From a virus: a stretch of 64,000 bases of DNA. A model generated the notes under the pieces. The model made no database searches, was not told where the DNA came from, and saw only the letters and a program-made list of their open reading frames with translations. Each line of letters begins with the position of its first letter. Positions within the stretch are counted from its first letter, which is position 1. Of the stretch, positions 1 to 63,824 are shown piece after piece. The translations under genes and the position numbers were made by a program. Location of the stretch: IMG/VR virus record IMGVR_UViG_3300042477_000480, positions 62,001 through 126,000 of that record; one strand, 5' to 3'.

Positions 1-624
1 CGCGTCGTCCGCGCGTGTACTGCCCGGAATCATACTCGCGGTGTCGCCGCCGTAATTTTCTTCTGGGCCCACGTCGCGGGTAGTCATACCCTCCGCTACT
101 GGCTGATTGAACGCGCGAACTTTTCTGATGCGCCGAACAGACAAACCTGTTGCATCTGCTAGCTCGTCGTCAGAAGGATCTCTGCCGAGCTGGTCTCGCA
201 GTTCATTTTCGCTTTCGTTCAATCGTGAGAAATCTAAACTAACCTGCTCAGGAATTGATATGATGTTTTGCGTTTGCGCCGACACACGACGCAGACTCTG
301 CAACTGCGACAACAAATGAGTGCGTACGTTACCCTTTGCCGGGTCATACGTGTCTAGCGCTTTTAATGCCATTATTTTTGCCCGCGACTTTATAGTCGGG
401 CTGGCGGCTTGCCCGGCGTAGCTCATAACAGCGGTGTCTATAACCGGCTGTAAGCTTTTGATGACTGCGCTATTGTTTTGCGGCGTCTTAGCCGTTTGCC
501 ACTGCGAATAAACAGTGTCAAAGTCGTCGGCAACGCCCGTAGGCTTTTTGCTGGAAAACGGTGCGGGTACGTCACCCAGAATGGACGGCATACCGGTCGG
601 TTGTGGTGATAACTTGTCTGCCAT
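1..624 (-). CDS. Sigma-70-like factor, 3' end cut by window edge
   Basis: The reading frame opens with ATG at 624, one base after the TAA of the hub-like gene, and stays open for 208 codons to the window edge. Residues about 70-110 look like sigma region 2 (a YDPAKGNVRTHLLSQL stretch followed by LRR). Residues about 120-165 match sigma region 3: an IPEQ segment, then LGRDPSDDELADATGLS, the usual LGR-P-T-E-x-A-x-x-G helix pair. Region 4 would lie outside the window. The product probably directs RNA polymerase to phage promoters, and because this phage encodes its own polymerase it is a natural partner for it. An anti-sigma or structural adaptor derived from a sigma fold is the main alternative. 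No cysteine is seen in the visible part. Confidence 0.75.
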   Translation of the reverse strand, partial: MADKLSPQPTGMPSILGDVPAPFSSKKPTGVADDFDTVYSQWQTAKTPQNNSAVIKSLQPVIDTAVMSYAGQAASPTIKSRAKIMALKALDTYDPAKGNVRTHLLSQLQSLRRVSAQTQNIISIPEQVSLDFSRLNESENELRDQLGRDPSDDELADATGLSVRRIRKVRAFNQPVAEGMTTRDVGPEENYGGDTASMIPGSTRADDA

Positions 625-8029: not shown

Positions 8030-8037
8030 GCGCCGCC

Positions 8038-8400
8038 TCAACCGGTTTTATTCTGCATCGTTTGTTTATAGCGCTCAATTAATGATTGTGTTTCGCTATC
8101 AACTATTGTATCTTTTTGCGGGCCTTCTTCGGCCTTTTTCGCCTCAAGCCATGGAAATGTTGTTTTTTGGATTACGCCCATGACCTCGTTGGCGTGCTTT
8201 TTAACTGCTTTGAAGCTCTCTTCCGTTAAATTGCCGTGCGACAACAGCGCGAGCCAGTGCCGGTGAGCAATTGTCAGGAGTTCGTAATCTTCGCGTCGTT
8301 CTACCTCGTCTAGAAGTAACCGGTGCTTTAATCGCCAGTGTCTGTCTCGGGGATCGGCTCCGGCGTAGTTAATTGCGCCGGACACAGCAGCCCGCACCAT
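8038..8400 (-). CDS. Small pre-tape-measure protein, tail chaperone candidate
   Basis: The ATG at 8400 gives 120 residues of charged, helical protein. The same frame is open upstream to a TTG at 8427, which overlaps the end of the preceding gene by 19 bases. Position directly before the tape measure, small size and overlap with the upstream gene are the hallmarks of tail assembly chaperone pairs. In those pairs the second protein is often made by -1 frameshifting. The overlap contains AAGTTTTTGGGAAGGG, which is not a perfect slippery heptamer. No family was recognised from sequence. Confidence 0.5.
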   Translation of the reverse strand: MVRAAVSGAINYAGADPRDRHWRLKHRLLLDEVERREDYELLTIAHRHWLALLSHGNLTEESFKAVKKHANEVMGVIQKTTFPWLEAKKAEEGPQKDTIVDSETQSLIERYKQTMQNKTG

Positions 8401-31357: not shown

Positions 31358-33238
31358 TCAGGGCTTCCACCCGCTAGTTGTACCCGTCACGCCAAACTGC
31401 TCGCCTTGGGCTAAAGACGGCACATAACTGCTGCCGGCTGTATCGCTACTTAACCCCCGGTGAACGCTATTCATAAGCCCCTTTTCCTGATATGAGCCCA
31501 GCATTCGGGTCATCCAGTCAGGGTCGTTCGAAATGTTTGCCATGCCGCGCACCATTTCGGGTTGGAACGGCGGCGGCTCTTTGTGGGCTTGTATGTTTTT
31601 AATTCCGTACTTATTCAGGTTGTTCAATACCCCGCGCCCGATTTTTGTGCCGATCGAGTAGTGCAGCACCGGTTTTTCGAGGTAATGGCCTGTTAGCGTT
31701 TGCGGGGCGCCAGCCACACTACCTTCACGCGGCGTCCAGTTTCTCTCCAACATCGCGTACGGCACAATGTCGTCCGGCGCATAATTCCCGTACTCGTCTG
31801 TGAGGCGCACGTGATTTACAAGTCCGCGGGATAGCAGCTCAATATTGCGGCGATGCGCTCCGATGCCGCTATTACCCATAACTTGGCGCATAGCTTGCAC
31901 AAAATAGCGCCGCCCTTCGCCGATACCCTTGTGCTTTACGATTTCCGACGGATTCGGCATTCCGTCAGATAGAACGTCGCCAGCCTCCAGATCATCACCC
32001 TTTTTGATCGCCAACGATCTTTCCGTCGGCACATAATGATCTTGGCCGTTAATTTGCACGTAGTATCCGCCCTGCGGAGCCGGCCTGATTTCTTGCACGC
32101 GGCCATCAGTTTGGGCGTGTGCGGCGCCGTCCGGGTATTTCTTCGGGACCTGTACAAGGGCGTTGAGCGCTTTAAAACCCGAGATTGCGCCAGCGCCTCC
32201 GACGCCGCCAGAGTGTTTCGAGCTAATCTGGCTCTGTGTGACAGGTTCAGACAGCGCTTGGGCCGCAGCGATACCCACATAATCTCCAGCCGGCGGTAAA
32301 CGGCCTTTTTCTCTAAAACCGACATCGCGCGCGTATACGCCGCCATCAGCCGGGCCTCCTACGATTGGGCTACGCACAAGAATATCTTTTGTGCCCATCT
32401 CTTTGATGTCGCGCAGGATCTTGGGCGTTAATACGGTGTTGCGCTTGTACGGCCCGACAGGACGCGCAAGTAACGCGCCTTCGTTGTCCGGGTCGTCAAC
32501 ATCGGTCGGATAACCACGCTCTAGCGCATCAGCTTTTCGGTCTTCATCATCGTCGTCATCGTCGTCGGCCGTGACCAGCAAACGATGCGTCATCTGCGCG
32601 AGCTGTTTACCGTAGAAACCAGCGTCCGCAGTCGCCGTCTTAAGATCGATAACACCTTTGCGCGTGCCGAAAGCGCCGGCAAAATACTCGACAGGTCGTA
32701 GCCCCTGCCCGTAGCCGCGAAGAACGGGAATTGGAATTGGATCGCCGCGGTGATCCAGATACTGCATGTCTGCGCCGATCAGCGAATTCAATTGATATTT
32801 ATTGCCAACGCCAGAGCCAGTGATTTGATGCACAAGCGGATTGTCTTGCGACTCGGCTTCTTTGTACACCTTGTCGAGTAGTTCCGACTGCGTGTTAGCG
32901 GCTAATTCCAGCAGTTTTACTTGCTTTTCTTTGTCGCCCAATTTCTTGTTCGACAAGATTTCTTGCATTGCGTGCTGCGTGCGGATCTGCGCCGCTTTAA
33001 CGGCCAATGTCGGCCGAATGTGCTTCAGGCTAAACGACAGCCCTGCGCTAGAATATCCCGCGTCCTTGCCGACGTCGTGCAGCCGCTTCATTACATCCCG
33101 GTACTTGTCGGGATGCTTTTGTGCTAGCTCAGTGGCTAGCGCGCCCATGCTTTTCTTGGTTAATACCCGATCGTAATCCCGCATTTCTGGCGGGAGCGCG
33201 TCGTTAATCAGGATTTGACCAAGCGTTGTTTTAAGCAT
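31358..33238 (-). CDS. RNA polymerase beta-prime C-terminal subunit
   Basis: A 626-residue protein starting at ATG 33238. MLKTTLGQILINDALPPEM matches the TT-x-GR-x-LFN-x-x-LP segment that follows the active site in beta-prime. RPVEYFAGAFGTRKGVIDLK (181-200) and TATADAGFYG match the bridge-helix region. VGIAAAQALSEPVTQSQISS (321-340) matches the trigger-loop helix. The region that carries the second zinc site in cellular beta-prime is replaced by an Asp-rich loop (about 224-233) and GVYARDVGFREKGRL, with no cysteines in the whole protein. It completes the beta-prime begun in the gene at 34220-38647. The split point resembles the rpoC1/rpoC2 division of cyanobacteria. Confidence 0.92.
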   Translation of the reverse strand: MLKTTLGQILINDALPPEMRDYDRVLTKKSMGALATELAQKHPDKYRDVMKRLHDVGKDAGYSSAGLSFSLKHIRPTLAVKAAQIRTQHAMQEILSNKKLGDKEKQVKLLELAANTQSELLDKVYKEAESQDNPLVHQITGSGVGNKYQLNSLIGADMQYLDHRGDPIPIPVLRGYGQGLRPVEYFAGAFGTRKGVIDLKTATADAGFYGKQLAQMTHRLLVTADDDDDDDEDRKADALERGYPTDVDDPDNEGALLARPVGPYKRNTVLTPKILRDIKEMGTKDILVRSPIVGGPADGGVYARDVGFREKGRLPPAGDYVGIAAAQALSEPVTQSQISSKHSGGVGGAGAISGFKALNALVQVPKKYPDGAAHAQTDGRVQEIRPAPQGGYYVQINGQDHYVPTERSLAIKKGDDLEAGDVLSDGMPNPSEIVKHKGIGEGRRYFVQAMRQVMGNSGIGAHRRNIELLSRGLVNHVRLTDEYGNYAPDDIVPYAMLERNWTPREGSVAGAPQTLTGHYLEKPVLHYSIGTKIGRGVLNNLNKYGIKNIQAHKEPPPFQPEMVRGMANISNDPDWMTRMLGSYQEKGLMNSVHRGLSSDTAGSSYVPSLAQGEQFGVTGTTSGWKP

Positions 33239-33239
33239 G

Positions 33240-33479
33240 TTACTTTGGCCAGATAATTTGCTGCATTGGCTTTGGCTTGAAATCAGATACGACAACCGTT
33301 TTTTCGATGCCAAGCGCCCGCAACATCGAATGGAAATCTGGCTCACCCGGCGTGGAATACACGATCGCTTCGTCTACTTGAATAGCGACGAAGATCGGAT
33401 TGCCCAGATCGTCTTCAACTACAACACTGTGCGCTTTCTGCTCAGTAGGTTGTAATTTGTGCTGCGTTTTAACGAGCAT
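33240..33479 (-). CDS. Small protein between the RNAP genes
   Basis: A 79-residue, beta-rich protein (SVVVEDDLGNPIFVAIQVDE) with a C-terminal basic strand (VVVSDFKPKPMQQIIWPK). Its stop lies one base before the start of the beta-prime C-terminal gene, and its start overlaps the previous gene by 11 bases. No family was recognised. Tight linkage makes an RNAP-associated role possible. Confidence 0.55.
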   Translation of the reverse strand: MLVKTQHKLQPTEQKAHSVVVEDDLGNPIFVAIQVDEAIVYSTPGEPDFHSMLRALGIEKTVVVSDFKPKPMQQIIWPK

Positions 33480-34197
33480 TGCCGTTGAGACTCCGAACCA
33501 TTGCAGCTATAGCGTTTGCTTTAATCTGCATGTCGGTCGGCTCATCGGGATTTTGCCGGTCAACGGGATGCCCGATATACGACGCCGACTTTGTTTCAGT
33601 CTGCTGCCACCACGCAGCCTTCGCGTTGGGATCGGGTTGTGGCGCATTGGGCGGAAGCGGACCGCCGGGAGGAAGCGGACCACCGGGCGGCTGCATACCG
33701 CCGCCTTGTGCGTTCGGGTCTTGCGGCGGCGGTGCCATCGGTCCGCCGGGCAGCGCTGTCTCAGCCGGCGGGGCACCTGTCGTTCCCGGGGGCAGCACAA
33801 GTGACTCCGGCGGAACTTGAACACCCATCGCGTTCATAATCGCGGTGAGCTGCTGCTGCATGTTGTAAAGCCGGTAGTCGAGCATCTGCATCATTTGCTC
33901 GGGCTTGAGTTTCTGCTGAGTGGCTGGAGCCATCCCCGGTGCCGCCGGGGCGGCAGGCGCAGCTGGCATCGCGGGAGGAGCGGCACCCATCGCAGCCGGA
34001 TCTACCGGCGCGGCACCACCAGCCATCATGGCCGGATCGGCAGGGGGCGCAGCTGCGGCTGCCGCGGGATCAGCCGCCGGATCTACCGGCGGTGCACCAC
34101 CTGCGGCGGCCGGATCAACGGCGGCACCGGGGACGAAAGCGGCTTTTTCAAATCGCGCTTTTGCAAGCGCAATTAATTCTGGATTGACTGTAAACAT
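33469..34197 (-). CDS. Pro/Ala-rich low-complexity protein between RNAP genes
   Basis: A 242-residue protein; the ATG at 34197 has GGAGG 8 bases upstream. Residues 20-95 are Ala/Pro/Asp/Met repeats of the type VDPAAAGGAPPVDPAADPAA. A helix follows (KPEQMMQMLDYRLYNMQQQL, about 98-117), then a Gly/Pro linker and a polar helical end. The single ordered helix flanked by flexible arms suggests a tether or virion linker. Position between the two polymerase subunits is notable. Confidence 0.6.
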   Translation of the reverse strand: MFTVNPELIALAKARFEKAAFVPGAAVDPAAAGGAPPVDPAADPAAAAAAPPADPAMMAGGAAPVDPAAMGAAPPAMPAAPAAPAAPGMAPATQQKLKPEQMMQMLDYRLYNMQQQLTAIMNAMGVQVPPESLVLPPGTTGAPPAETALPGGPMAPPPQDPNAQGGGMQPPGGPLPPGGPLPPNAPQPDPNAKAAWWQQTETKSASYIGHPVDRQNPDEPTDMQIKANAIAAMVRSLNGNAR

Positions 34198-34219
34198 GTG
34201 ACCTCCGTGTGCGCCAAAG

Positions 34220-37200
34220 TTACTTATTATCTTCCACAATATGAACCGGGGTGTCTACCTCTATTTCGCCGCGCCGATACGCCAGCACGGCGTCTTGCCG
34301 GTTTCTAAACACGCGCGGCTTGGCTTTGTTATTGATGCGGCTAGACGCCACGTATAAGCCAGTTTGATAGTCTTTATTGGGCACGTAGTGCGCCCGGAAG
34401 CTCGACGCCGCGAACAGATTTTTACTCGGCAGCATCTTGTCGACAGCTTCTTTTGCTGCATCTTCAGTCGACGGCACGTGATACTGCATAGCGTCGCCGT
34501 CAAAGTCGGCGCCGAATCCCTTTGTGATAACGGGGTTTACTTCCATGACCTTGTTCTTTGTTAGCCGCGGGTAGAACGCCATCATTCCATAGCGATGCAG
34601 AACCGGCGCGCGATTGATGATAATTGGCCGGGAATTCATTTGCTTGTCTAGCTCGGCCGCTGCTTCTTTGTTCTTTTTCTCAACCGCTTCCAATGCTTGC
34701 ATGCGCGGTAACCCACGGCGCACTAGCCCGCGCACCACAAACGGCTTGTAGATATCCCACGCCTTTTCTTCGGGCAAGGCCACCTGATCCATGTCTAGAT
34801 CGGGGTTTGGCGTAATTACCGCGCGGCCGACGAGGTCGACCGTCGAGCTTAATAATTTGCGCTGCACAGTGCCGTACTTTGGTGACGCCCCAAAAATGTG
34901 GCGTAAAAACCCTTTTACGTTTCGTTCAGCGTTTTTGGGCTGCTGCGGTTCGCCTAGGCCAGTCACGCCCTTCATTGCGTCGTACACACTGAGTCGCTCG
35001 TCGCCGTACTCAGCTAGTGCGCCGGACGTATCTTTCAGCGTGTTGTTGGCGTCCAGCAACTCCTTGTATAAGTAATTTGCGTCAGCTACGAGCGGCAGCT
35101 TTTTGCTGCCCATCGTACTAACGGGCCGAAACAGAGGCGGCAGCACCGGCACGCGTGTTAGCATCCAGTCTTTTGGATGCACGCCGGTAGACTCCGCACT
35201 CTTTAAAAAGCCAAGCCGTCGTACCGCTGCGTCGCGTAACGTTTTTCGGCCGGATTTGATATCTTCGCGCGCCTGTTCAATGGCCTTTGGCAAATTGATT
35301 TTGGCTAGCGCGTCTGCAATCGCTTTTGGGCCGGTTTGGTCGCCAAGCTGGTCCGTACCCGCTAACACGCCGCGAAATTTTTTCTCCGTCAAGCCCAGCA
35401 CGCGGCGGATCGGATCTTCCATCACCGGATTCGGCATGGGCTCGTGTAATGTTATTTTTGACCATCGGTTACCGCCGTGGCCGCCAGTAAGTGACTCGTC
35501 GAACAGGCCGCCCTTGATCGGCTTAAGCCTGCCCTTCCAGTCAACCGTCTCGGCGTTTTCGATTTCACGTGCGCCGGCTAATCCGTCGACGTCTTTGTCT
35601 GTAAGCGCCATAACGTTTGTGCGTGTACCGCTGCGCACAACGTTAATGCCAGACGCCTTCAGCTGCCCGACAAACTTTTCGTATACGTGTGGGACGCGCG
35701 GAAGCGGCGGCGTGTAACCGGCCATGAACTGCGACCAGTACTCTGGATTAGCTTGGCCGCGCACCATCTTGGCGTCACGAATTACTTTGCCAGCGCCGTG
35801 CGACAGCAAGGCGCCAAGATCCAACATGCCAACCCGCTTAGCGCCTTCTGATCCACCCTTCGCCGGAGTGCCTTCCGCGGTGTATGCGCCCGTTGCACGC
35901 CCCTGCGCTTTGGACTCGCTGGTGTGATGCAGTTTCATAAAAAAGCGCGAGCCGGTAAGCACACCCGGAATCTTTCGACCTGTCTCCGGGTCGGTTAAGT
36001 CTTCTGTATCAGATAACCCGTTCCTGTCTAATTCTTTCTGCGCAAACTCGACAAGATCTTTCTGGTCATCGAAGTCTTTGATCTTAAACGGCTTGCCAGT
36101 CTTTGCGGCAACTTTGCCCAACGCCGCCTCAATAACCTGCGCCGGATTAACACGCGAAATTAAACCTAGCGGGCTAACCAGCACCTCGAACGGATTGCCG
36201 TCTTTGTCTTGCGGCATCTGGTCATCGGGGATGATGTCTGCCACAACGCCTTTATCGCCAAAGCGGCCTGTAAGCTTGTCGCCAACGTCCATCGCGGCTT
36301 GGTTTTTAACAACGACGCTCACGCCCTTTTTTGTGTGCACAACGTCCGTAACGACTCCGGGCGCATGGTGTTCCCACGTCACCGTCTCGTTGGTGAAGCT
36401 GCCCGCGCGGCCGCGATGCACTTTGCCGTAAACCGTGTCTTTTTTCTTAGCTACCAGCACCAGCGGATCGCCAAAGTTAACTGTGGTGCCCTTTTTAATT
36501 GCGCCCTGATCGTCAAAGTTGTCCAGCATCTTGCGCTCGTATTCGCGGGGGAAAAGACTCACGAACGCCTTTTTGCCAACGTGAGTGTTATCGTCCCATT
36601 CCGCTTCGTGCTGGTACATGTGCTCTGACGTAAGCCGCTTGGCCGCAGACTCGGAGATCACTACGGCGTCTTCGTAGTTTTTGCCGCGAAAGGGCAGATA
36701 AGCTACGCGCATGTTCAGACCCAGCGCGGCGCTCCCTTGATCGTCCGTAAAGTTCGACTTGGCAAGCAGCTGTCCCGGCTTTACGTAATCGCCCGGTTTA
36801 ACCAGCGGCGTTTGATGTAAAAACGTTTTTCGGTTGTACGGCATCTCGTTGTACAGCTCGATCGTTTTCTTTTCGCCGTTCTTGTCGCGCAGCACGATCG
36901 CATCTGGCGTAACGTCGACAACCTGCCCGGCTTCAGCCGCTCTCGCCGCGCCAAGCTTTTCGCCCATCTCGTCTTCGTGCGATACGTTTTCATCGTCAAA
37001 CTTGGCCGACTGCACAAGCGGCGTTTGGGCGCCAACGAGCGGAAGCGCCTGCGTAAACATGCGACTACCCATGATCACGCGCTGCCCTTTAACCATGGCT
37101 TTCATCGGCACCATGTTTGTGAGCGCAGAAAACGTCGAATCCATGTTTGACAGGCTGTACTGCGCATCTTTGCGGTCGACGTACTTCATCTTGCCGTTTA

Positions 37201-38647
37201 CAAGCGCAGCCACTACCGGCATTTTGTTATTTGTCTCGCCCGGGAACACGAGCGGCGTATCCGCTAGTTCCTGCGGCGTCTTGTATTCCGTCTCACCTGT
37301 TTTCATGTTGATCACAGGCGTGTACACCTTCCCATCGGCGCCCTTCATAGCGCCCCGCGCAAACCGCATATCAACGCCAACTTTGCCGGACTCAGGCGTG
37401 CGCAGATAGTCGATAAAGCCCAGATGGCTGGGCTGCACACTGCGCGACTCTGCCGGCACGGCGTCGAGTGACGCGATGCCGCCTTCGCCCATTCGCGTAA
37501 CGCGTGTTTGGTGGTCAAAAATTTCGGCGGGGTTGATCTCTTCAAGACTCGATCCAAGACCAGACCCGATCAGCGCAGCAGAAATCGCTTTATCGAAGAC
37601 GCCGCTCGGAATGTGATCAATCGACTTCTTCGCCGTGGCTTTCCACAGCAACTTGTTTAAACCCTGCCGATCTTTGGTGAAGCGCTCAGAGATGAGATCC
37701 TCTGGCCCGACGACAGATTGAAACACCATGTTGTCGCGGTCGTCACTCTCGGCTTCGCGTCGGTTAACAGCTAGCAGCTTTTTTGTAATTGCCAGAATGG
37801 TGTCTGGCGTCATGTTTTTGTATTCGCTACCTAGCGTGCGGCGTGTGACTTCAGGATCAAGCTCTGTTTTGGCAAACTCTTCAAGCAACGCCTTGGCTTT
37901 GATCGTGGCGTCTGCTCCGGCGACTGGTTTATTCACAAAGCGACTGTACAGCTTGTCGAGCGTACCGGCGTCGCCTTTTTCCATATTGACGGCCGTTATC
38001 TCGTTGCCCCACGCCTCGCGGATCTGGCTGTCCGTAACGCCCATGGTTTTCAGCAGCGGCATTAGCGGAATCTGCGCCTGTCCGACGCTGATTTTAAACA
38101 CGCCCGTTTTCGGATCTAAAAAGTAACGGTGCGAGCGGCCTTTGCCCGGCAGTGTGTTTACGTGCGCTTCGATTTCGCCGTTGTCTTTTTCGCGGGTGAA
38201 GACGCCGGACTTAAGCCGCATCTGATGCGCCAGCGTGTACTCGACACCGCCGTTGACGAACGTGCCAGCATCTGTCAGATAAGGCACATGCGCGATAGTT
38301 GCACGCTTCTGCCCAAGCGGCTGTCCGGTTTTGTTATCAACTAGCGCCCACGTACCCTGTAAACGACGCGACAGCGAGCCGCGCGAGAGCACTGCCTTTT
38401 TTTGGTCGGCCCGCGTAAATCGTTCGGGCCCCGTGTAGCCGACGTCTTGCAGCTGCAGCGTATACAAATCGTTTTGCAGCGGGCGCAAACCCTGCGCGCT
38501 TGTCAGCGCCTGATTGAAGATGTTGTCGCGCATCGAGCCGATGTCGCCAAACGTCCGCATTGGTGGCGGCGTTGTCGGCGGCGCTGTCGGCACCGCGGGC
38601 GGCTGGCTGCTGAACTGCTTCAGCGGCGGCAATTCAGGCGCTGGCAT
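34220..38647 (-). CDS. RNA polymerase beta / beta-prime N-terminal fusion
   Basis: A 1475-residue protein. Beta motifs: TFVNGGVEYTLAHQMRLKSG (129-148, lobe/protrusion), FRGKNYEDAVVISESAAKRL (653-672), GDKLTGRFGDKGVV (789-802), DGNPFEVLVSPLGLISRVNP (816-835), and the C-terminal clamp region to about 1000. Beta-prime motifs: ENAETVDWKG and GGLFDESLTGG (1030-1056), VPVLPPLFRPV (1166-1176), KLLSSTVDLVGRAVI (1264-1278), IIINRAPVLHRYGMMAFYP (1342-1360) and the catalytic GADFDGDAMQ (1379-1388, three Asp for Mg). It ends before the TT-x-GR segment, which starts the second subunit. No cysteine occurs, so the first zinc site of beta-prime is missing too. Confidence 0.95.
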   Translation of the reverse strand: MPAPELPPLKQFSSQPPAVPTAPPTTPPPMRTFGDIGSMRDNIFNQALTSAQGLRPLQNDLYTLQLQDVGYTGPERFTRADQKKAVLSRGSLSRRLQGTWALVDNKTGQPLGQKRATIAHVPYLTDAGTFVNGGVEYTLAHQMRLKSGVFTREKDNGEIEAHVNTLPGKGRSHRYFLDPKTGVFKISVGQAQIPLMPLLKTMGVTDSQIREAWGNEITAVNMEKGDAGTLDKLYSRFVNKPVAGADATIKAKALLEEFAKTELDPEVTRRTLGSEYKNMTPDTILAITKKLLAVNRREAESDDRDNMVFQSVVGPEDLISERFTKDRQGLNKLLWKATAKKSIDHIPSGVFDKAISAALIGSGLGSSLEEINPAEIFDHQTRVTRMGEGGIASLDAVPAESRSVQPSHLGFIDYLRTPESGKVGVDMRFARGAMKGADGKVYTPVINMKTGETEYKTPQELADTPLVFPGETNNKMPVVAALVNGKMKYVDRKDAQYSLSNMDSTFSALTNMVPMKAMVKGQRVIMGSRMFTQALPLVGAQTPLVQSAKFDDENVSHEDEMGEKLGAARAAEAGQVVDVTPDAIVLRDKNGEKKTIELYNEMPYNRKTFLHQTPLVKPGDYVKPGQLLAKSNFTDDQGSAALGLNMRVAYLPFRGKNYEDAVVISESAAKRLTSEHMYQHEAEWDDNTHVGKKAFVSLFPREYERKMLDNFDDQGAIKKGTTVNFGDPLVLVAKKKDTVYGKVHRGRAGSFTNETVTWEHHAPGVVTDVVHTKKGVSVVVKNQAAMDVGDKLTGRFGDKGVVADIIPDDQMPQDKDGNPFEVLVSPLGLISRVNPAQVIEAALGKVAAKTGKPFKIKDFDDQKDLVEFAQKELDRNGLSDTEDLTDPETGRKIPGVLTGSRFFMKLHHTSESKAQGRATGAYTAEGTPAKGGSEGAKRVGMLDLGALLSHGAGKVIRDAKMVRGQANPEYWSQFMAGYTPPLPRVPHVYEKFVGQLKASGINVVRSGTRTNVMALTDKDVDGLAGAREIENAETVDWKGRLKPIKGGLFDESLTGGHGGNRWSKITLHEPMPNPVMEDPIRRVLGLTEKKFRGVLAGTDQLGDQTGPKAIADALAKINLPKAIEQAREDIKSGRKTLRDAAVRRLGFLKSAESTGVHPKDWMLTRVPVLPPLFRPVSTMGSKKLPLVADANYLYKELLDANNTLKDTSGALAEYGDERLSVYDAMKGVTGLGEPQQPKNAERNVKGFLRHIFGASPKYGTVQRKLLSSTVDLVGRAVITPNPDLDMDQVALPEEKAWDIYKPFVVRGLVRRGLPRMQALEAVEKKNKEAAAELDKQMNSRPIIINRAPVLHRYGMMAFYPRLTKNKVMEVNPVITKGFGADFDGDAMQYHVPSTEDAAKEAVDKMLPSKNLFAASSFRAHYVPNKDYQTGLYVASSRINNKAKPRVFRNRQDAVLAYRRGEIEVDTPVHIVEDNK

Positions 38648-38651
38648 ATAA

Positions 38652-39524
38652 CTACCCCGCCTGCGCTTGTTCGGCTCGCTGCTTCAGGGCGACAATCTCG
38701 TCGGGATCTACGTACGTCGGCAGAATACCGGCGATACGCGCCTTGGATTGCGCCGCCTCTTCTACAGCCTTGGCACGAGAACGCTCGCGGGCCCGGTCGT
38801 ACATTAACTTGGCCGCAAGTCCGCCCAGTCCTAAACCAGTGGCCACATAGGCGCCACCCACGGCCGACGGAACACGTTTGGCGGTGTCCCACATGCTCGT
38901 CAGCATCTCTAGCGGGTTCGCCTGCTTCTCCGCAGCGGCCTTTTGCCCGGCGAGGTCATACACACCGTCTAGTTTGTTCGCCGACGGGCCGACCAGCGCG
39001 GCATAGTACTCTTTTTCGGCCGCATCAATCTCGGCCTGCCGATCGCGTTTCTTCTTACGGTTGTGCAGCGCTTGAATAAGTTTATAGCCGCCGTATGTGC
39101 CTAGTGCACCGGCGCCCAGCGTAGCAGCCGTACCAAACGACGAACGAATAACGTTTGGATCGTACGAGTTCGGCGCTTTGGGTGTAACCGCCGGCGTAAA
39201 CGGCTTTAGAAAATCAACAACGGAGTCGGGCAGTGCGCGGCCAATACCGCCAGCGACGTCGTCGTAGGCACCGGCCATTTTGTTGCCCGGCACTACAGCT
39301 TCCGCTGGGTTTTCGTCTTCTTCGACTTCGGGCTTGCGGTCGCGAATCGCTTGCGACAAGCCGCGGGCAAGATAATAAAGCCCTGCAGCGCCAGCGCCGA
39401 GACCGAGACCACCAACACCAGTGCGCAAAATGCGATCACCCCAAAAACGCTGGAAGTCTTGGGGCGTAGGTTTGCCAGCAACGGCGGGTTGAACGTCATT
39501 TGCGAGCTTTGCGGTAGTCGTCAT
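38652..39524 (-). CDS. Membrane-associated Gly-rich protein
   Basis: A 290-residue protein with three glycine-rich hydrophobic segments: GVGGLGLGAGAAGLYYLARG (36-55), AATLGAGALGTYGGYKLI (about 132-149) and GGAYVATGLGLGGLAAKLMY (about 225-244), each followed by basic residues. Long charged helices lie between them. It starts the block just upstream of the RNAP fusion (gap 4 bases). It could be a virion protein that enters the host membrane. Family unknown. Confidence 0.5.
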   Translation of the reverse strand: MTTTAKLANDVQPAVAGKPTPQDFQRFWGDRILRTGVGGLGLGAGAAGLYYLARGLSQAIRDRKPEVEEDENPAEAVVPGNKMAGAYDDVAGGIGRALPDSVVDFLKPFTPAVTPKAPNSYDPNVIRSSFGTAATLGAGALGTYGGYKLIQALHNRKKKRDRQAEIDAAEKEYYAALVGPSANKLDGVYDLAGQKAAAEKQANPLEMLTSMWDTAKRVPSAVGGAYVATGLGLGGLAAKLMYDRARERSRAKAVEEAAQSKARIAGILPTYVDPDEIVALKQRAEQAQAG

Positions 39525-43399: not shown

Positions 43400-44221
43400 T
43401 CAAGTTTGCGGCACCAGTACATACGGCCGACCGTTAATCACAATAGTGCCGTTAATTTGCAGTCCAGCATCTTTTGTAATCGGATAAACCGCGGTGCGCT
43501 TTCCGTAAAGTTTTATGATTTCGGCGATATCGCCTTCTTGCGGTTTTGTTACGTTCGGATCGTAGTAGGGCGCCATCAGGTTACCCGCGTTTAAATGCGG
43601 TAGCCCCAACGCGTGCCCCAGCTCGTGACAAATAACAGCAACAGCCATGTTGAACGACCAGTCTTCCGCTTCGTCGAACATCTGATCAAGCTGGACGTTT
43701 TCGGCTACACCGCACGGCAACTCGCTCCACGCCAGTGTGCCGCCCTTGTTATCTAAACCGTTTTTCTTTCCGACACCGGAGCGCGCATAAATGTTCGCCT
43801 TGGTGTGCGTATCGACGCGCTGCGGCTCCAGCGCACACACCTCTGCCCACTGCGAAAACGCAATGTCGTAGGCTTCGGCCACCTGCTGTTCTGTCAGCCC
43901 CGGCAAATGGATTTTGTGATAGTACGTCACATTCGGCATCGGCCACTTGCACGGATCGCCGCCCGGAGCGGTGATATTGAAGTCCGGCAGACCGCAGCGC
44001 CGCTTGTTGATGCGATGCGCTGTCTTGGGGCCCACAGTACCTGTGGGGTTTAAGCCGTTAAACGACTGGAAGGCGCGGATCGCTTTTTGCAACTCCGCGC
44101 CTTTAATCTTCTTGACCTGCGCCAGCGTTTTATCGCCGAAATACCCCAGCGCATGCAGCCGCGTGAGAATCTCGCTGATCGGTAAAACGTGGGTTTCGTG
44201 AGCGGTTGGCTTCCGTGCCAT
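43400..44221 (-). CDS. Matrixin-like zinc metalloprotease with PG-binding domain
   Basis: A 273-residue protein. Residues 14-72 form a peptidoglycan-binding type 1 domain (LHALGYFG ... LQKAIRAFQSFNGLNPTGTV). Then comes RRCGLPDF (74-81), matching the cysteine switch PRCGVPD of matrix metalloproteinases. The catalytic domain has AFSQWAEVCALEPQRV, the calcium-type loop MFDEAEDWSF (181-190), the zinc motif CHELGHALGLPHL (His199, Glu200, His203, His209) and the Met-turn NLMAPYY (Met216). Domain order is exactly that of MMP proenzymes. There is no signal peptide, so release would need lysis or a virion. It may cut cell-surface proteins. Confidence 0.88.
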   Translation of the reverse strand: MARKPTAHETHVLPISEILTRLHALGYFGDKTLAQVKKIKGAELQKAIRAFQSFNGLNPTGTVGPKTAHRINKRRCGLPDFNITAPGGDPCKWPMPNVTYYHKIHLPGLTEQQVAEAYDIAFSQWAEVCALEPQRVDTHTKANIYARSGVGKKNGLDNKGGTLAWSELPCGVAENVQLDQMFDEAEDWSFNMAVAVICHELGHALGLPHLNAGNLMAPYYDPNVTKPQEGDIAEIIKLYGKRTAVYPITKDAGLQINGTIVINGRPYVLVPQT

Positions 44222-47710: not shown

Positions 47711-47786
47711 TGGCTGCCTGAGTAGGACTCGAACCTACGACCCGGCGGTTAACAGCCGCCTGCTCTACCAACTGAGCTATCAGGCA
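47711..47786 (-). tRNA. tRNA-Asn (GTT)
   Basis: A complete 76-base cloverleaf with encoded CCA. Acceptor TGCCTGA pairs with TCAGGCA, and discriminator G precedes CCA. The anticodon stem GGCGG/CCGCC encloses CTGTTAA with anticodon GTT at 47751-47753. The T arm is GTAGG-TTCGAGT-CCTAC. It is the only tRNA in the window, inserted between two phage genes on the same strand. Confidence 0.97.
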
Positions 47787-52420: not shown

Positions 52421-52954
52421 TCACCTATCCATAATGTTTAGTTTACGCAGCTGACGTTTGTCAACATCAGCCAGAATTCTTTGAATGTGTTGCGCGTCTT
52501 CATAACTGTCTTGCAGTTGATTTTCGTAAAACACTTCGAGGTACTTGGCGGCCACTTGATCGTCTAGCGATCCGGCCTGCTCAATCCGCTTGGCGTAATT
52601 AACAACTACTTGGCGCTCCAGCGTATGCGCCTCAATCAGAATGTCTTCCACGCGCGTATAAGTCGCAAACGTGTGCCCGCCCGCTGCCGGCAAGACAAAG
52701 TTAAAGCCATGCAGGCAGTCGAGAAACTGCTGCACGTGCTCCAGCTCTCCCTTGGCCGCGTCGGTCAGGAACTCCTTGTATTCCTCGGCGTGCAGGCCTG
52801 TGACAGCGCTGGAGTGATACAAGTAAAACGCGAGATGGGTCCACTCGTTCTGCAGGTCCGCGTTCATCAGGGTTAAGAACTGCGGCAGCGTAAAACGGCC
52901 GGGTTCGCCTTCAGGACCGGGCAGCCCCGGATCGTCGATGTGTTCGTTTGTCAT
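52421..52954 (-). CDS. Ferritin-like di-iron protein
   Basis: A 177-residue four-helix protein. Metal ligands in order: Glu37 (LQNEWTHLAFYLYH), Glu70-x-x-His73 (KGELEHVQQF), Glu108/Glu113 (IEAHTLERQVVVNYA) and Glu152-x-x-x-His156 (SYEDAQHIQRIL), the bacterioferritin/Dps-like set. A short GLPGPEGEPG segment precedes helix A. It may store iron or protect phage DNA from oxidation. The gene follows the nuclease gene with one base between and stops just before the structured gap. Confidence 0.75.
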   Translation of the reverse strand: MTNEHIDDPGLPGPEGEPGRFTLPQFLTLMNADLQNEWTHLAFYLYHSSAVTGLHAEEYKEFLTDAAKGELEHVQQFLDCLHGFNFVLPAAGGHTFATYTRVEDILIEAHTLERQVVVNYAKRIEQAGSLDDQVAAKYLEVFYENQLQDSYEDAQHIQRILADVDKRQLRKLNIMDR

Positions 52955-54360: not shown

Positions 54361-55065
54361 TTACAGTTTTTTGAGCACCGCGCTTACGATGGGATGGCGT
54401 ACAACGTCACTATGGGCAAAATGCACAGTATCAATACCCGCCACACCTTTTAACTTCTGCACAACTTCGTTTATTGGCGGAGGTGAAAACGGTAAATCAC
54501 TCTGATGCGGGTCGCCGGTAATAACCATCTGCGTGTTCTGCCCAAAACGCGACAACAACAGTTTGAGCTGCATATACGTCGCATTCTGGGCTTCGTCAAA
54601 TACAACGACTGAATCGTTAAACGTACGGCCGCGCATATAACACAGCGGCGCCAACACGATGGCTTTATTTACAAATTCGCGCTTGGGATTAAATTTGCCC
54701 AGCAGCGTGTCCATCGTGTCGTACAGCGGTTGCATGTACGGATTGACTTTTTCGCCAAATGAGCCGGGAAGATAGCCGAGTTTTTCACCGGCATCAACGA
54801 TCGGCCGCGTAAGAATGATCTGGCTTTTGCGCTTGGCGAGGATCTCATTGATCGCATACGCCATCGCCAAAAAAGTCTTGCCAGACCCCGCTGACCCAAG
54901 CAGAAATGTGACGTGGTTATCCAGTAACGTTTGCCACGCGCGTTTTTGACTGTCGGTGCGCCATTCGATTTCACACGGCGCTAATGCGACTTTTGCCCGC
55001 TCCTGTTGATCTTGTTTTTTCTTTGCCTTTTTCTCCGCTCTGTTAGACGAGCGCGATGTAGCCAT
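54361..55065 (-). CDS. phoH: PhoH-like ATPase
   Basis: A 234-residue protein with a Lys-rich start. Walker A is FLLGSAGSGKTFLAMAYA (57-64 core), TRPIVDAGEKLGYLPG is the PhoH signature, and Walker B is SVVVFDEAQNATYMQLK (Asp157, Glu158). Motif TGDPHQSDLP is also present. PhoH is widespread in phages. It is linked to RNA metabolism as an RNA helicase or nuclease partner, but its role in infection is unsettled. It is followed by the glycosyltransferase-like gene. Confidence 0.92.
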   Translation of the reverse strand: MATSRSSNRAEKKAKKKQDQQERAKVALAPCEIEWRTDSQKRAWQTLLDNHVTFLLGSAGSGKTFLAMAYAINEILAKRKSQIILTRPIVDAGEKLGYLPGSFGEKVNPYMQPLYDTMDTLLGKFNPKREFVNKAIVLAPLCYMRGRTFNDSVVVFDEAQNATYMQLKLLLSRFGQNTQMVITGDPHQSDLPFSPPPINEVVQKLKGVAGIDTVHFAHSDVVRHPIVSAVLKKL

Positions 55066-59782: not shown

Positions 59783-61225
59783 TTAAGCGTTTTTCTGTAG
59801 CTGCGCTAACACGCGGGCAGCGCTCTCTTTAATTTCTTCTTCTTCCTTTTTGTCGTCTTTTTCGTCGTCTTTTTTCTCGCTCTTTTCGTCGTCCGGCTTT
59901 TTCTTCTTGCCGATGCTGGAACCAATATTACCCCCCAGATGAGCGCCTGCCCCGAGCCCCAGCGCGCCGCCACTTAACAAACCCAGTCCGGCACCCGGAG
60001 CGCCGCCGAGCGCACCACCCGTCAGCGCACCCATCAGGCCGCCACCCACGCCGCCGGCCAAACCACCGACGCCAGAGCCCAGCACGCCGCCGAGCAGCGA
60101 CGCCTTCTTGCCTTCCCACGACGGAGCGCCCATCGCAGCATCAGCCATCGAATAGCCGGCGCCACCACCCAGCGCTGCACCGCCGACGCCGCCTGTAAAC
60201 AGCGTGTTCATAGCCTGTAAATGCGACGCCGGAGACGAACCGGGACCGCCGGCACGACGAACTAACTGCCCTCTACGCGCTAGTGATTTGAGGTAATCCC
60301 CGAGCTGGCGAGCTGACGGCGCAAAGAACTTTTTCGCCAGTCGCGGATTGGTCGACGCTAAAAGCAGCGTGCCGAGCGCGCCAATGGGCGCACCTACCAT
60401 CATGCCGGCGCCAGTTGCTGTGCCCTTGACCGCGCCGCGGCCGACACCTTCCATGCGGTGGCCAGACGGCGCTGTCGCCGCGCCAAGACCAGCGCCAATA
60501 CCGGCCGACGGCAGCATCAGCGCCGCCATCTTGTCGCCTGCAGCGGCTGCGGCTTCCTCTGGCGCAGGTGTCGCGGGCGTCTGCGGATTGCGGAACACGC
60601 CATCAGAGCCAATAAGATTGCTGCCGTGACCCTGCGCGGCGAGCATGGGATTGATAACGGCACGCTCCAACGGATTCATCGTTTTCTGCCCCTTAGCTTT
60701 TAACATTGCGTCGCCAAGCATGCCGCCAACCAGCGCTGATTGCTTCATCTGCTGGCCTGCCATCAAGCCAGCACCAGCAACACCACCGGTCACCGCAGCC
60801 CGAGTCGGCGTACCAAACATTGTCTTGCCCATGCGACCAGCAATGTCAGAGCCCATTTGATTTACCTCTTTCACAAGCGGTTGCGCCGCATTCTGCAGCC
60901 GATTCGTGGCCCGCTGCGCTTGAATTCCGAGTCCGCGCATCTGTGTGGTCGCGGTGTTCGCGACTTGATTGGCCGCGTTGCCGAGTTCACTGCCGACTTC
61001 ATTGACGGCGGCACCTAGCGCACGCTCGCCAGAACGGATACCGGCACCAACGCCGCGCATGCTGTTGCCGAGACCAGAGACAGCATTGCCGACCATATTG
61101 TTACCCAGATTCTTCGCGGCAAAGTTAGCAATACCTTTTCCAGCGGCGTTGACTGCGCGACCCAGAAACGCTTGCTTTGTCTGCTGACCAACTTGCATAC
61201 CAAATTGCTGGGGCGTAACGGCCAT
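59783..61225 (-). CDS. Gly-rich protein of the PYEFG family
   Basis: A 480-residue protein from ATG 61225 (AGGTGA site) beginning MAVTPQQFGMQVGQQTKQAF. Ala/Gly-rich helical parts are followed by long glycine-zipper stretches (SGVGGLAGGVGGGLMGALTG, AGLGLLSGGALGLGAGAHLG) and a Lys/Glu-rich tail (KKEEEEIKESAARVLAQL). It is the largest member of the family and probably inserts into membranes or is packed in the head. An in-frame upstream extension exists but has no good start. Confidence 0.55.
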   Translation of the reverse strand: MAVTPQQFGMQVGQQTKQAFLGRAVNAAGKGIANFAAKNLGNNMVGNAVSGLGNSMRGVGAGIRSGERALGAAVNEVGSELGNAANQVANTATTQMRGLGIQAQRATNRLQNAAQPLVKEVNQMGSDIAGRMGKTMFGTPTRAAVTGGVAGAGLMAGQQMKQSALVGGMLGDAMLKAKGQKTMNPLERAVINPMLAAQGHGSNLIGSDGVFRNPQTPATPAPEEAAAAAGDKMAALMLPSAGIGAGLGAATAPSGHRMEGVGRGAVKGTATGAGMMVGAPIGALGTLLLASTNPRLAKKFFAPSARQLGDYLKSLARRGQLVRRAGGPGSSPASHLQAMNTLFTGGVGGAALGGGAGYSMADAAMGAPSWEGKKASLLGGVLGSGVGGLAGGVGGGLMGALTGGALGGAPGAGLGLLSGGALGLGAGAHLGGNIGSSIGKKKKPDDEKSEKKDDEKDDKKEEEEIKESAARVLAQLQKNA

Positions 61226-61319
61226 ACGGTCACCTGTGGCTTGAATAGAGTTTTGGATCTTCTTTTTTGTAACGTGCTGTGCAATGCGCTCGAACAACTT
61301 GCGGCGAGATAGTAATAAC

Positions 61320-63824
61320 TCAGCCGCCCGGGCTCCCGGTTGCGTCGACAGTAAACTCGATATCGGAAACGTCGGCATCGCTGGGCCCCAAAATACTTCT
61401 AATTACCGGCTTGGTCGCGTTTAACACAGCCTTGTCGGGGAGCTGGTATTTTACAAGCTTGCGGCGCTTCCGTGAAAGCGGGCGTTTGGCTGTGCGCGTA
61501 ATGTGCTGCTGGAGCACACGCAGCAGATCATCGCCGGCACCCGTAATTCCAGCTTGTTTGTCACCGGCCTGCTCTTTGCGGCGGCGCTTTAGATATTTTT
61601 GCAGCTCTTGCTCTTGGTATTCCTGCAGCATGGTCTTAACATCGCCGGCCTGAACTTTAGAGACCAGCTTTTCGGGGTTAATCGCCCAGTGTCTAAGCGC
61701 CCAGCCACGACGAGGTGTAGGATTGCTGACAAACGGTCCGCCATGCCGCGCTTTGAAGCTCGCCCAGCGCTTGATCTGTCGCGTGTCTTCGTCGGGGATT
61801 CTCCGCCCAGAGTTATAGTTCTGATACCACTCCAGCCAGCCCTTGGGGTCATGCTCTGTCACCCACTCTGGCTTCCATTCGCCCAGACTGGCTAACCGCG
61901 GCCCGTCTTTCTCGTACAGCGACTTGTACACACCCATGGCATGCAACTGCCCGGGCGTATAGTCAGGCTGAAAGTCAGGAAGTTCCGCGCCGAGCTTTTC
62001 TTGTTGATAGCGCGAGCCCTCTTCTTTCAGGAGCTGCCGGAAGGCTTCGTTGAGCTGCTCTTTCTCAGCCGTGAGGCGTTCCAGCACTTCGTCGCCCGTG
62101 CGTTCGCGCTTGTAGCCCATGAGCTTGCCAACAATGCTGGGCTCTTCGCTGGCGCTTAGATATCTTTTGACGGCGACGTTTTTGAGTTCCTCTGGCAAAT
62201 CCCGGTGCGAGTCAAAACGCAGGCCACGGCCTTTGGCTTGCTGGCTGCGCGATTCATGCCAGTGCGGGTCGAGCAGCTGAATCAAGCTCGTGCCGCGGGT
62301 GGACAAGCCTTCAGCGCCAGCCGGGCCAATGAGCAGCGCCCGCAGCTTGCCTTGGTTGTACGCATCGACGGCCGCTTGGCGCGCCTTGGGTGTTACGCCG
62401 CCGTGGAAGAACGCATGCGGAACTTTGGCTTTCTCCAGCGCGGACGCATACGGCGCCAAGCCAGAGTCAATAAAGTTCGAGTAGATAATCGCCTTCTTGC
62501 GCTTGTCTTCCGCCAGCGTCTTCTGCAAGTCTTGAAACGCCTTTTGTAACTTAGCGCTTTGCGAAAACGCCTTAGACGGATCTTTATCGGCGCGAAACGG
62601 CTGCGTCGACAGGCTCACTTGGCGCAGGCCCGTCATAAAGCTATTTAATTTGGCCAGCTCATCGCGGGACAATGGAAACTCTTGGTCCAGCTTCCAGAGA
62701 AAGCCCGGCGGAATCTTCGTGCGGATGGCGTTCTGAATCTTCTTTTGTTCAGCACTGAGCGGGACTTTGACCTGCTCTTCTTGAACGTTCACGCCTTCGG
62801 GTGTCTTGCTGGGCTGATAATCGACTTTGCCCTTCAGCAGCTGGCGCAGTTCTTTCTCGTTCTTAACAATCGGCTTCACGCCGGGCTTCACCCCACGCAG
62901 CCAGCCAAATAAACCCGGCCGCACGGTCTTGTAGCCCACGTAGCGCTTCTCAAACTCTTCGGGCGACAGCTGCTTGTTGTGCAGCATGGCCAAGAGATTC
63001 GCCATGTCGCTGGGCGAGTTGGTAATCGGCGAGCCTGTTAATAACAACAGGCGCTGCGCTTTGGCCGCGGCTTCAGCAGCGCCGACAGAACTAGCGCTCC
63101 CGGGATTACGTAATCTATGCGCCTCGTCCATGATGAGCGTGCTGGGCTGCTGCTGGAACTTCTTGCCCAACGCCAAGCCGGTGTAGCTCATGATCTCCGG
63201 ATTGGAGTTGCGCGTGAACTTCTTGACTTCTTTGTCAAAGTTCCCACGCAAGCTCGCCGGCACAACCACGCCATAGTCTTCGCCGGTCTGCTTCTTGGCT
63301 TCTTCAGCAGCCGCGAGTGACGACAGCGATTTCCCAGAACCCAGTCCGTGATACACCAGTAGTCTGGGATCTTCGCCGGTAATGCGATCGGCAATGCGCT
63401 GCTGGTGCTCTTGCAGCTGCAGGTCGGGGATGAGTTCCGCGGTTTTGTCTGCTTCTATCTTTGCCCACGCATCGTCTTTGCTCATGCCGTTTTCTTGCAG
63501 CATCCACGCTTTATGGATTTGATCACGTTTTGCTGTTGGATAAAAGCTTAAATCTGTGTTGTTGCCAGAAGCGGTTAAAAACCCGCCCGGTCGTTGCTTG
63601 AGTTTATAGCCGTGTTTTTGCGCAAGGGTGTGCAAAAGTTTCCGAAAACGTTCTTGCTGCGCGACATCATCCGTAAACGCAATGTAATCATAGTCGCGCC
63701 CCTGCGGCGCCGGACGGCCGTACATTTTTGCGCGGCCCCGCGAACCCATAAGCTCGGCATCGCGCATAAAACTCGCTGCCGGCTTCGGTAATGTATCGTC
63801 GAGAATGCTGTTAATTTTGCTCAT
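61320..63824 (-). CDS. Nucleotidyltransferase-like/SNF2 helicase fusion
   Basis: An 834-residue protein. Residues 20-100 look like a minimal nucleotidyltransferase: MGSRGRAKMYG (GSRG), QGRDYDYIAFTDD (Asp44/Asp46) and NNTDLSFYP (Asp91). Helicase motifs follow: YHGLGSGKSLSSL (160-166), STLIMDEAHRLRN (233-236), LLLTGSPITNS, KKAIIYSNFIDSG, AFFHGGVTPKARQAAV, GAEGLSTRGTSLIQLLDP and QQAKGRGLRF (motif VI). A C-terminal part (GRRIPDEDTRQIKRWASFKA) is extra. It probably remodels DNA-protein complexes; the fused transferase is unusual. Confidence 0.85.
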   Translation of the reverse strand: MSKINSILDDTLPKPAASFMRDAELMGSRGRAKMYGRPAPQGRDYDYIAFTDDVAQQERFRKLLHTLAQKHGYKLKQRPGGFLTASGNNTDLSFYPTAKRDQIHKAWMLQENGMSKDDAWAKIEADKTAELIPDLQLQEHQQRIADRITGEDPRLLVYHGLGSGKSLSSLAAAEEAKKQTGEDYGVVVPASLRGNFDKEVKKFTRNSNPEIMSYTGLALGKKFQQQPSTLIMDEAHRLRNPGSASSVGAAEAAAKAQRLLLLTGSPITNSPSDMANLLAMLHNKQLSPEEFEKRYVGYKTVRPGLFGWLRGVKPGVKPIVKNEKELRQLLKGKVDYQPSKTPEGVNVQEEQVKVPLSAEQKKIQNAIRTKIPPGFLWKLDQEFPLSRDELAKLNSFMTGLRQVSLSTQPFRADKDPSKAFSQSAKLQKAFQDLQKTLAEDKRKKAIIYSNFIDSGLAPYASALEKAKVPHAFFHGGVTPKARQAAVDAYNQGKLRALLIGPAGAEGLSTRGTSLIQLLDPHWHESRSQQAKGRGLRFDSHRDLPEELKNVAVKRYLSASEEPSIVGKLMGYKRERTGDEVLERLTAEKEQLNEAFRQLLKEEGSRYQQEKLGAELPDFQPDYTPGQLHAMGVYKSLYEKDGPRLASLGEWKPEWVTEHDPKGWLEWYQNYNSGRRIPDEDTRQIKRWASFKARHGGPFVSNPTPRRGWALRHWAINPEKLVSKVQAGDVKTMLQEYQEQELQKYLKRRRKEQAGDKQAGITGAGDDLLRVLQQHITRTAKRPLSRKRRKLVKYQLPDKAVLNATKPVIRSILGPSDADVSDIEFTVDATGSPGG

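Follow-up and report, generated by a model that had tools for sequence, protein, structure and literature searches.

Which kind of RNA polymerase (RNAP) is made of two proteins that together rebuild the two large subunits of a cellular enzyme and contain not a single cysteine? This question is raised by a locus in a 64,000-nt window of viral DNA (the whole stretch that was analysed, to which all coordinates refer unless stated otherwise), which is part of the 203,206-base IMG/VR virus record IMGVR_UViG_3300042477_000480. We consider it quite probable that the locus encodes an alpha-less, sigma-dependent virion RNAP, which would be ejected together with the DNA to transcribe the early genes. 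The enzyme represents a conserved lineage across a large, little-known group of tailed phages and is not an oddity.

The larger gene (34220..38647, minus strand) starts with ATG and encodes a fusion protein of 1475 amino acids (aa), in which a complete beta subunit (approximately residues 30-1005) is followed by the N-terminal part of beta-prime through the catalytic double-psi beta-barrel (DPBB). It matches the Pfam families Rpb2_6 (E=2e-52) and Rpb1_2 (E=3e-24), more weakly also Rpb1_1 and Rpb2_3, and a phmmer search against PDB sequences aligned residues ~64-1025 with bacterial beta and residues 1078-1470 with beta-prime up to approximately its residue 540. The smaller gene (31358..33238, minus strand) encodes the C-terminal part of beta-prime (beta-prime-C, 626 aa) with bridge helix, trigger loop and clamp, which matches Rpb1_5 (E=1e-22) and aligns with residues ~664-1187 of the mycobacterial beta-prime. 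Read as its longest open reading frame (ORF), from a GTG, this gene would encode 662 aa, and the 36 extra residues would bring three cysteines; the methionine of MLKTT is the start in relatives as well, which supports the ATG start. AlphaFold models of the pieces reached pLDDT (predicted local distance difference test) values of 73 and 75, and Foldseek confirmed the fold: cyanobacterial and plastid rpoC1 chains were among the best matches of fusion residues 780-1475, bacterial beta-prime chains were those of the 626-aa piece, with low global TM (template modelling) scores for these pieces modelled without their partners. The original prediction, made from the sequence alone, had described beta motifs running into beta-prime motifs through GADFDGD and a separate remainder of beta-prime; ORFs, Pfam and PDB alignments agree with both statements, and the profile search it had proposed places both pieces in cellular RNAP families.

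The anatomy of the enzyme was deduced by alignment of the two pieces with Salmonella beta and beta-prime (all motifs on the minus strand). Kept are the beta-barrel lysine pair (K791 and K799 in the active-site motif GDKLTGRFGDKG, 36248..36283), the catalytic DFDGD (residues 1381-1385, 34493..34507), the NRAP motif, the bridge helix (GTRKGVIDLKTATADAGFYGKQLAQMTH, 32588..32671) and the catalytic His of the trigger loop region (32192..32287), from which the equivalents of Met932 and Arg933 are lost (QISSKH). By its beta and beta-prime homologues with DPBB lysines, DxDGD, bridge helix and trigger loop, this is a two-barrel RNAP of the cellular type. At the fusion junction (35558..35641) the beta end VYEKFVGQLKASGINV continues through a short linker into EIENAETVDW of beta-prime. 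The cut in beta-prime lies in the linker ahead of the TTLGQILIN motif; hence, nothing obviously essential is missing between the two pieces. Residues of the rifampicin site are altered (D516E and S531T equivalents), from which no firm prediction follows.

As predicted, both proteins are free of cysteine, and with it the ligands of both bacterial beta-prime zinc sites are gone. However, the first site was not merely stripped of its cysteines, because the whole domain (E. coli C70-C88) is deleted: approximately 40 residues are missing between GLFDESLTGG and RWSKITL (deletion point at 35468..35509), so that GLFDESLTGG-H-GGNRWSKITL stands where Salmonella has GLFCARIFGP...RMGHIEL. The second site was thought to be replaced by an Asp-rich loop, which is true for its first ligand (32531..32566), but the zinc loop itself persists, with other residues in place of the further three Cys ligands (PIVGGPADGGVYARD, 32321..32365).

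Among GenBank phages, tblastn detected the same fusion and a separate beta-prime-C in the Salmonella phage Arash and the Vibrio phages D69, D148 and D181. In this search the window's fusion is ~31% identical to those of the isolates over 96%; a further comparison gave ~33% for the fusion and ~24% for beta-prime-C. The fusion gene is intact in D69 and interrupted by a homing endonuclease gene in D148 and D181; in the latter (L003, 7845-13410) ORFs of 532 and 1006 aa are left. The four isolates share with the window's genome the homologous sigma factor and the absence of the first zinc domain, which together with the fusion define an Arash-type lineage, but unlike the window's enzyme they keep the second zinc Cys quartet and have 1-2 Cys in the fusion. 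Two scans of IMG/VR listed 45 and 80 loci (L numbers), the latter being 80 of the 556 relatives found in the second scan; the longest relative contigs have ~175-226 kb. A scan of genome contigs gave a single match, one contig in a Lentisphaera metagenome-assembled genome, which is too little to name a host. A Carin-5 beta bait retrieved no matches of the mReC type, whereas a mixed beta-prime alignment from other phages did: contigs with beta-prime of ~900 aa, then beta of ~1000 aa, NADFDGD and many cysteines, recognised by this architecture and not by a published accession. Unexpectedly, the same bait also retrieved full-length single-chain beta-beta-prime enzymes of 2083-2241 aa (L249, L250, L252 and L256). 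They likewise are without the first zinc domain, and three of these four contain just the four Cys of zinc site 2, to which L252 adds a fifth.

Several side observations were made among the loci. In L251, beta-beta-prime is divided over two ORFs that abut each other (815 and 1302 aa), and the beta-prime-C of L115, L120 and L139 bears a Cys-free C-terminal extension of 300-617 aa. Three records of the phage collection, L166 (OR844998), L006 (MT836236) and L168 (CAKLQH020000005), are rpoBC operons of bacteria together with genes for ribosomal proteins and are probably contaminants; bacterial rpoB and rpoC are present in L167 (OR846602) as well.

A tree was calculated from 42 enzymes (1601 columns, LG+C20+F+G4), with phiKZ-type sequences left out as too diverged and four bacterial RNAPs as outgroup. 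All fusion enzymes are monophyletic (100/100), and the mReC-like (100/99), Carin-5-like and bacterial enzymes fall outside; removal of the longest branches did not change this result. The phylogeny, named beforehand as a test, hence did not place the fusion clade inside the mReC-like one, and the proposed distinct lineage of phage multisubunit RNAP is supported. Since the four bacterial sequences are the sole outgroup, the deep root is not claimed. Counted from this base, the single-chain L256 branches first, then the likewise single-chain L250, L249 and L252, and then the two-piece enzymes (99/97). Within the latter, Arash and D69 come first, followed by L053, L054 and L143, all of which keep zinc site 2, and the window's clade, which has no zinc site, branches last (100/99). 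On this tree, fusion and loss of the first zinc domain are the earliest steps, the split after the catalytic barrel is the next, and the second zinc site was lost last, in the clade of the window's enzyme.

The lack of cysteine is more than chance: at the genome-wide Cys rate of 1.41% approximately 30 would be expected in the 2101 residues of both proteins. Only 2 alignment columns contain Cys in 12 members of the window's clade, compared to 115 columns in 12 enzymes of the mReC-like type, whose tree is of similar length and which have on average 25.5 Cys per enzyme over the aligned columns. Some of the relatives' RNAP genes contain large in-frame inserts, and there all or nearly all Cys sit inside the insert. 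Most inserts start with Cys and are followed by Ser, and their sites are catalytic motifs, among them DFDGD, the bridge helix, RTPE|S and the trigger loop. Of four insert-bearing genes that were scanned, three matched Hint or LAGLIDADG domains. The inserts resemble inteins, and their removal by splicing would again leave an enzyme without Cys. Probable inteins occur in the fusion of L032, L103, L134, L142, L143, L052, L053 and L054 and in the beta-prime-C of L014, L137 and L054, with L054 having three in the fusion and one in beta-prime-C. The inserts show that Cys-rich protein can be made from these very genes; hence, it is the enzyme itself that is kept clean. A general rarity of Cys in this genome is ruled out by its rate as well as by the Cys-rich inserts.

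Two further Cys-free proteins accompany the enzyme. A sigma-70-like factor of 273 aa (1..624, minus strand; its final 65 residues are encoded beyond the left edge of the window, and the entire gene is found at record positions 61806-62624) is the homologue of the Arash virion sigma gp10, and an SNF2/SF2 (superfamily 2)-type helicase of 834 aa (61320..63824, minus strand) that of the Arash virion helicase gp217. The homologues of Arash gp206 (fusion), gp216 (beta-prime-C), gp10 and gp217 in this genome gave E values of 3e-226, 2e-47, 9e-21 and 4e-71, respectively. The sigma homologue was found in all 14 fusion genomes tested, the single-chain ones included, and is Cys-free in 13 of them as called; in three contigs its gene is near the single-chain RNAP gene. 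The helicase, like sigma, is nearly Cys-free among the fusion genomes. An alpha subunit was not detected with PF01000 in this genome, six relatives, Arash and D69 (controls positive in 13/14), a search that leaves room for a highly diverged alpha or the use of host alpha; an alpha dimer as assembly platform was thus likewise not detected.

The link to the virion comes from Arash. In its published purified-particle proteome, obtained by mass spectrometry (PMC10585845), the fusion gp206 is the most-detected protein with 128 unique peptides and most spectra, and the particles also contain beta-prime-C gp216 (40 unique peptides), sigma gp10 (24) and helicase gp217 (38). Calculated from these data, unique peptides per 100 aa amount to 8.4 for gp206, close to the 9.8 of the capsid protein, and to 10.3 for sigma, 8.1 for the helicase and 6.6 for beta-prime-C. 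The well-detected virion proteins of Arash have 0.48% Cys, its other proteins 1.30%. A second Arash sigma, gp196 (OQ632216, 120656-121693), has Cys and is absent from the virion, which suggests that genes switched on after entry have a sigma of their own. Moreover, the gene directly upstream of RNAP encodes the portal in Arash and D69, and a portal gene is also found a short distance upstream in L053, L054, L143 and the deepest member L256; in contrast to the isolates, the portal of the window's genome is far from its RNAP genes.

We propose that the two chains of 1475 and 626 aa would rebuild full beta and beta-prime minus the first zinc domain, and that the covalent fusion may do part of the assembly job of alpha, which would explain why alpha is not needed. 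The small sigma-70-like protein would supply promoter recognition. Encoded among virion genes, the enzyme would be made late, packed with sigma and helicase, and ejected with the DNA through the tail, so that the early genes could be transcribed without the host polymerase. Cysteines and both zinc sites were most likely removed stepwise for a partly unfolded passage through tail and envelope, after which refolding would be free of disulphide or metal problems; a similar explanation, partly unfolded tail passage, has been offered for the N4-like virion RNAPs (PMC3915230), which contain no cysteine (PMC3915230, PMC4837373).

Several observations weigh against this proposal. One is the loss of the equivalent of Arg933 from the trigger loop. 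Enzymes that clearly do not belong to the virion appear in the Arash proteome as well, with few peptides each, and carry-over into the particles is considered possible by the authors (PMC10585845). Furthermore, the portal (7 Cys), gp222-like (11) and gp218-like (8) proteins of the window's genome keep normal Cys; hence, virion location alone does not empty a protein of Cys. The virion RNAP pieces of phiKZ are Cys-poor and not Cys-free (8 Cys in 1948 aa versus 18 in 1515 aa of the non-virion enzyme), counts that point only weakly toward Cys loss in virion RNAPs; those of AR9 were not used, being spoiled by introns. Carry-over would allow the enzyme to be a non-virion RNAP for middle or late genes, similar to the non-virion RNAP (nvRNAP) of phiKZ or AR9. 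Only one Rpb1_5 gene was found in the possibly incomplete 203-kb record, instead of the two RNAPs of phiKZ or AR9, and a single multisubunit RNAP could serve late genes too. But gp206 tops all virion proteins in the Arash data with a capsid-like peptide density, whereas other replication enzymes reach ~2 peptides; its virion sigma is Cys-free while gp196 has Cys; and RNAP genes adjoin the portal and other virion genes, if not the portal in this genome. We therefore regard a non-virion role as unlikely.

The reason for the Cys loss is less certain than the packaging. Cysteines and zinc could have been lost for oxidative stability of virions in storage, by metal limitation or by drift after a change in assembly, and not for ejection. 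The single-chain members, which keep the four Zn2 Cys and almost no others, fit this, as one structural zinc is evidently tolerated there, and so do the many virion proteins of this genome that retain Cys. On the other hand, the emptied set includes RNAP, sigma and helicase and not the portal or shell and tail homologues, and the unrelated N4-like virion RNAP shows the same absence. Such other reasons are thus a real possibility that we nevertheless doubt. It is improbable that the enzyme arose by fusion within the mReC clade already described: the two groups both branch deeply among the beta/beta-prime enzymes borne by phages, and the small outgroup leaves the order at the base open, but the mReC-like enzymes form their own clade with beta-prime preceding beta and keep the first zinc domain, NADFDGD and many Cys. 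The chance that the genes are decayed or that assembly or annotation misled us, for which nothing speaks beyond the unusual architecture, is negligible, given that dozens of distinct contigs as well as isolates share this architecture, that the frames are open and that the catalytic residues are conserved.

Besides the RNAP with its sigma and helicase, the region encodes a Pro/Ala-rich, Cys-free protein of 242 aa between the two RNAP genes (33469..34197, minus strand), conserved in relatives, and a Cys-free protein of 290 aa that flanks the fusion gene (38652-39524). G004, which has an RNAP fusion of ~53% identity, contains conserved counterparts of both, again without Cys. Further away, a matrixin peptidase with a peptidoglycan-binding domain (43403-44221), tRNA-Asn (GTT; 47711-47786), a ferritin-like protein (52424-52954) and a PhoH-like protein (54364-55065) were found. 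In a search for a promoter motif, the k-mers enriched in front of 92 genes were no more than weak, GC-rich words. A search for a T7-like RNAP had no match, but its control matched nowhere either and the search is uninformative.

The phiKZ and mReC lineages of cellular-type RNAP in phages are thus joined by a further well-supported one, whose living intermediates show in which order one chain became two and the last zinc was lost. The enzyme suggests that alpha, both zinc sites and all thiols are dispensable to a two-barrel RNAP that keeps sigma, making it a natural minimal enzyme for structure work and engineering. On balance, we lean towards a widespread, undescribed group of sigma-dependent virion RNAPs that arose by fusion (single-chain members being deepest), were cut again and were purged of Cys and both zinc sites, perhaps the first thiol-free cellular-type holoenzyme without metal sites (bar the catalytic Mg), in which the absence of Cys marks ejected proteins. 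This provides a testable rule for finding such proteins, namely otherwise ordinary enzymes without Cys, with N4 as unrelated precedent. By the same rule, two Cys-free window proteins of no recognised family, 1486 aa (3584-8041) and 531 aa (59786-61378), are candidates. With Arash as cultured relative, the lineage is directly testable.

How does the enzyme compare with known systems? Regarding the position of the split, the original prediction had to be corrected: in the virion and non-virion RNAPs of phiKZ, beta-prime is cut behind the catalytic DPBB, where it is also cut in cyanobacteria (PMC7598289) and here, and only the beta splits differ. The phiKZ and AR9 enzymes also share the lack of alpha or omega and a virion-packaged form, but their beta is split and unfused to beta-prime, two enzymes exist per phage, a recognisable sigma-70 homologue is missing and the sequences are far more diverged (PMC7598289). 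The window's enzyme has neither a split nor an unfused beta. In cyanobacteria, rpoC1/rpoC2 are split after the barrel as here, but fusion and split are not combined. Helicobacter and Wolbachia have a fused rpoBC, i.e. a beta-beta-prime fusion without the split, and like the cyanobacterial enzyme theirs retain zinc sites, alpha and omega. The one-chain barrels of YonO, crAss-like phages, P23-45 gp64 and the tape measure protein-fused gp96, whose virion location is another likeness, recall the single-chain members of the lineage (PMC10770324). However, they belong to the second, RNA interference (RNAi)-polymerase-like clade of two-barrel RNAPs, whereas the fusion lineage has full beta/beta-prime with clamp and sigma. 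The N4-like virion RNAP is likewise huge, Cys-free, virion-packed and injected, with an unrelated, T7-like fold (PMC3915230). The mReC enzymes (Weinheimer and Aylward, 2020; PMC7481178) are also phage-borne, alignable with cellular RNAP and a deep branch apart from cells, but in the contigs of mReC architecture found here, beta-prime and beta have a gene each, neither zinc site is missing and Cys is abundant. The published mReC search required NADxDGD and subunits of at least 800 aa (PMC7481178), and the window's RNAP is fused, split, carries GADFDGD and has a second piece of 626 aa. In the open-licence literature, a phage beta-beta-prime fusion of this kind is not described in the mReC study of 2020, the jumbo-phage reviews of 2020, 2021 and 2026 or the P23-45 work, nor mentioned in the available part of the Arash paper (PMC10585845), so that the architecture seems to be undescribed. 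Phage-borne cellular-type RNAPs as such are already known; the architecture and the lineage of its own seem to be new.

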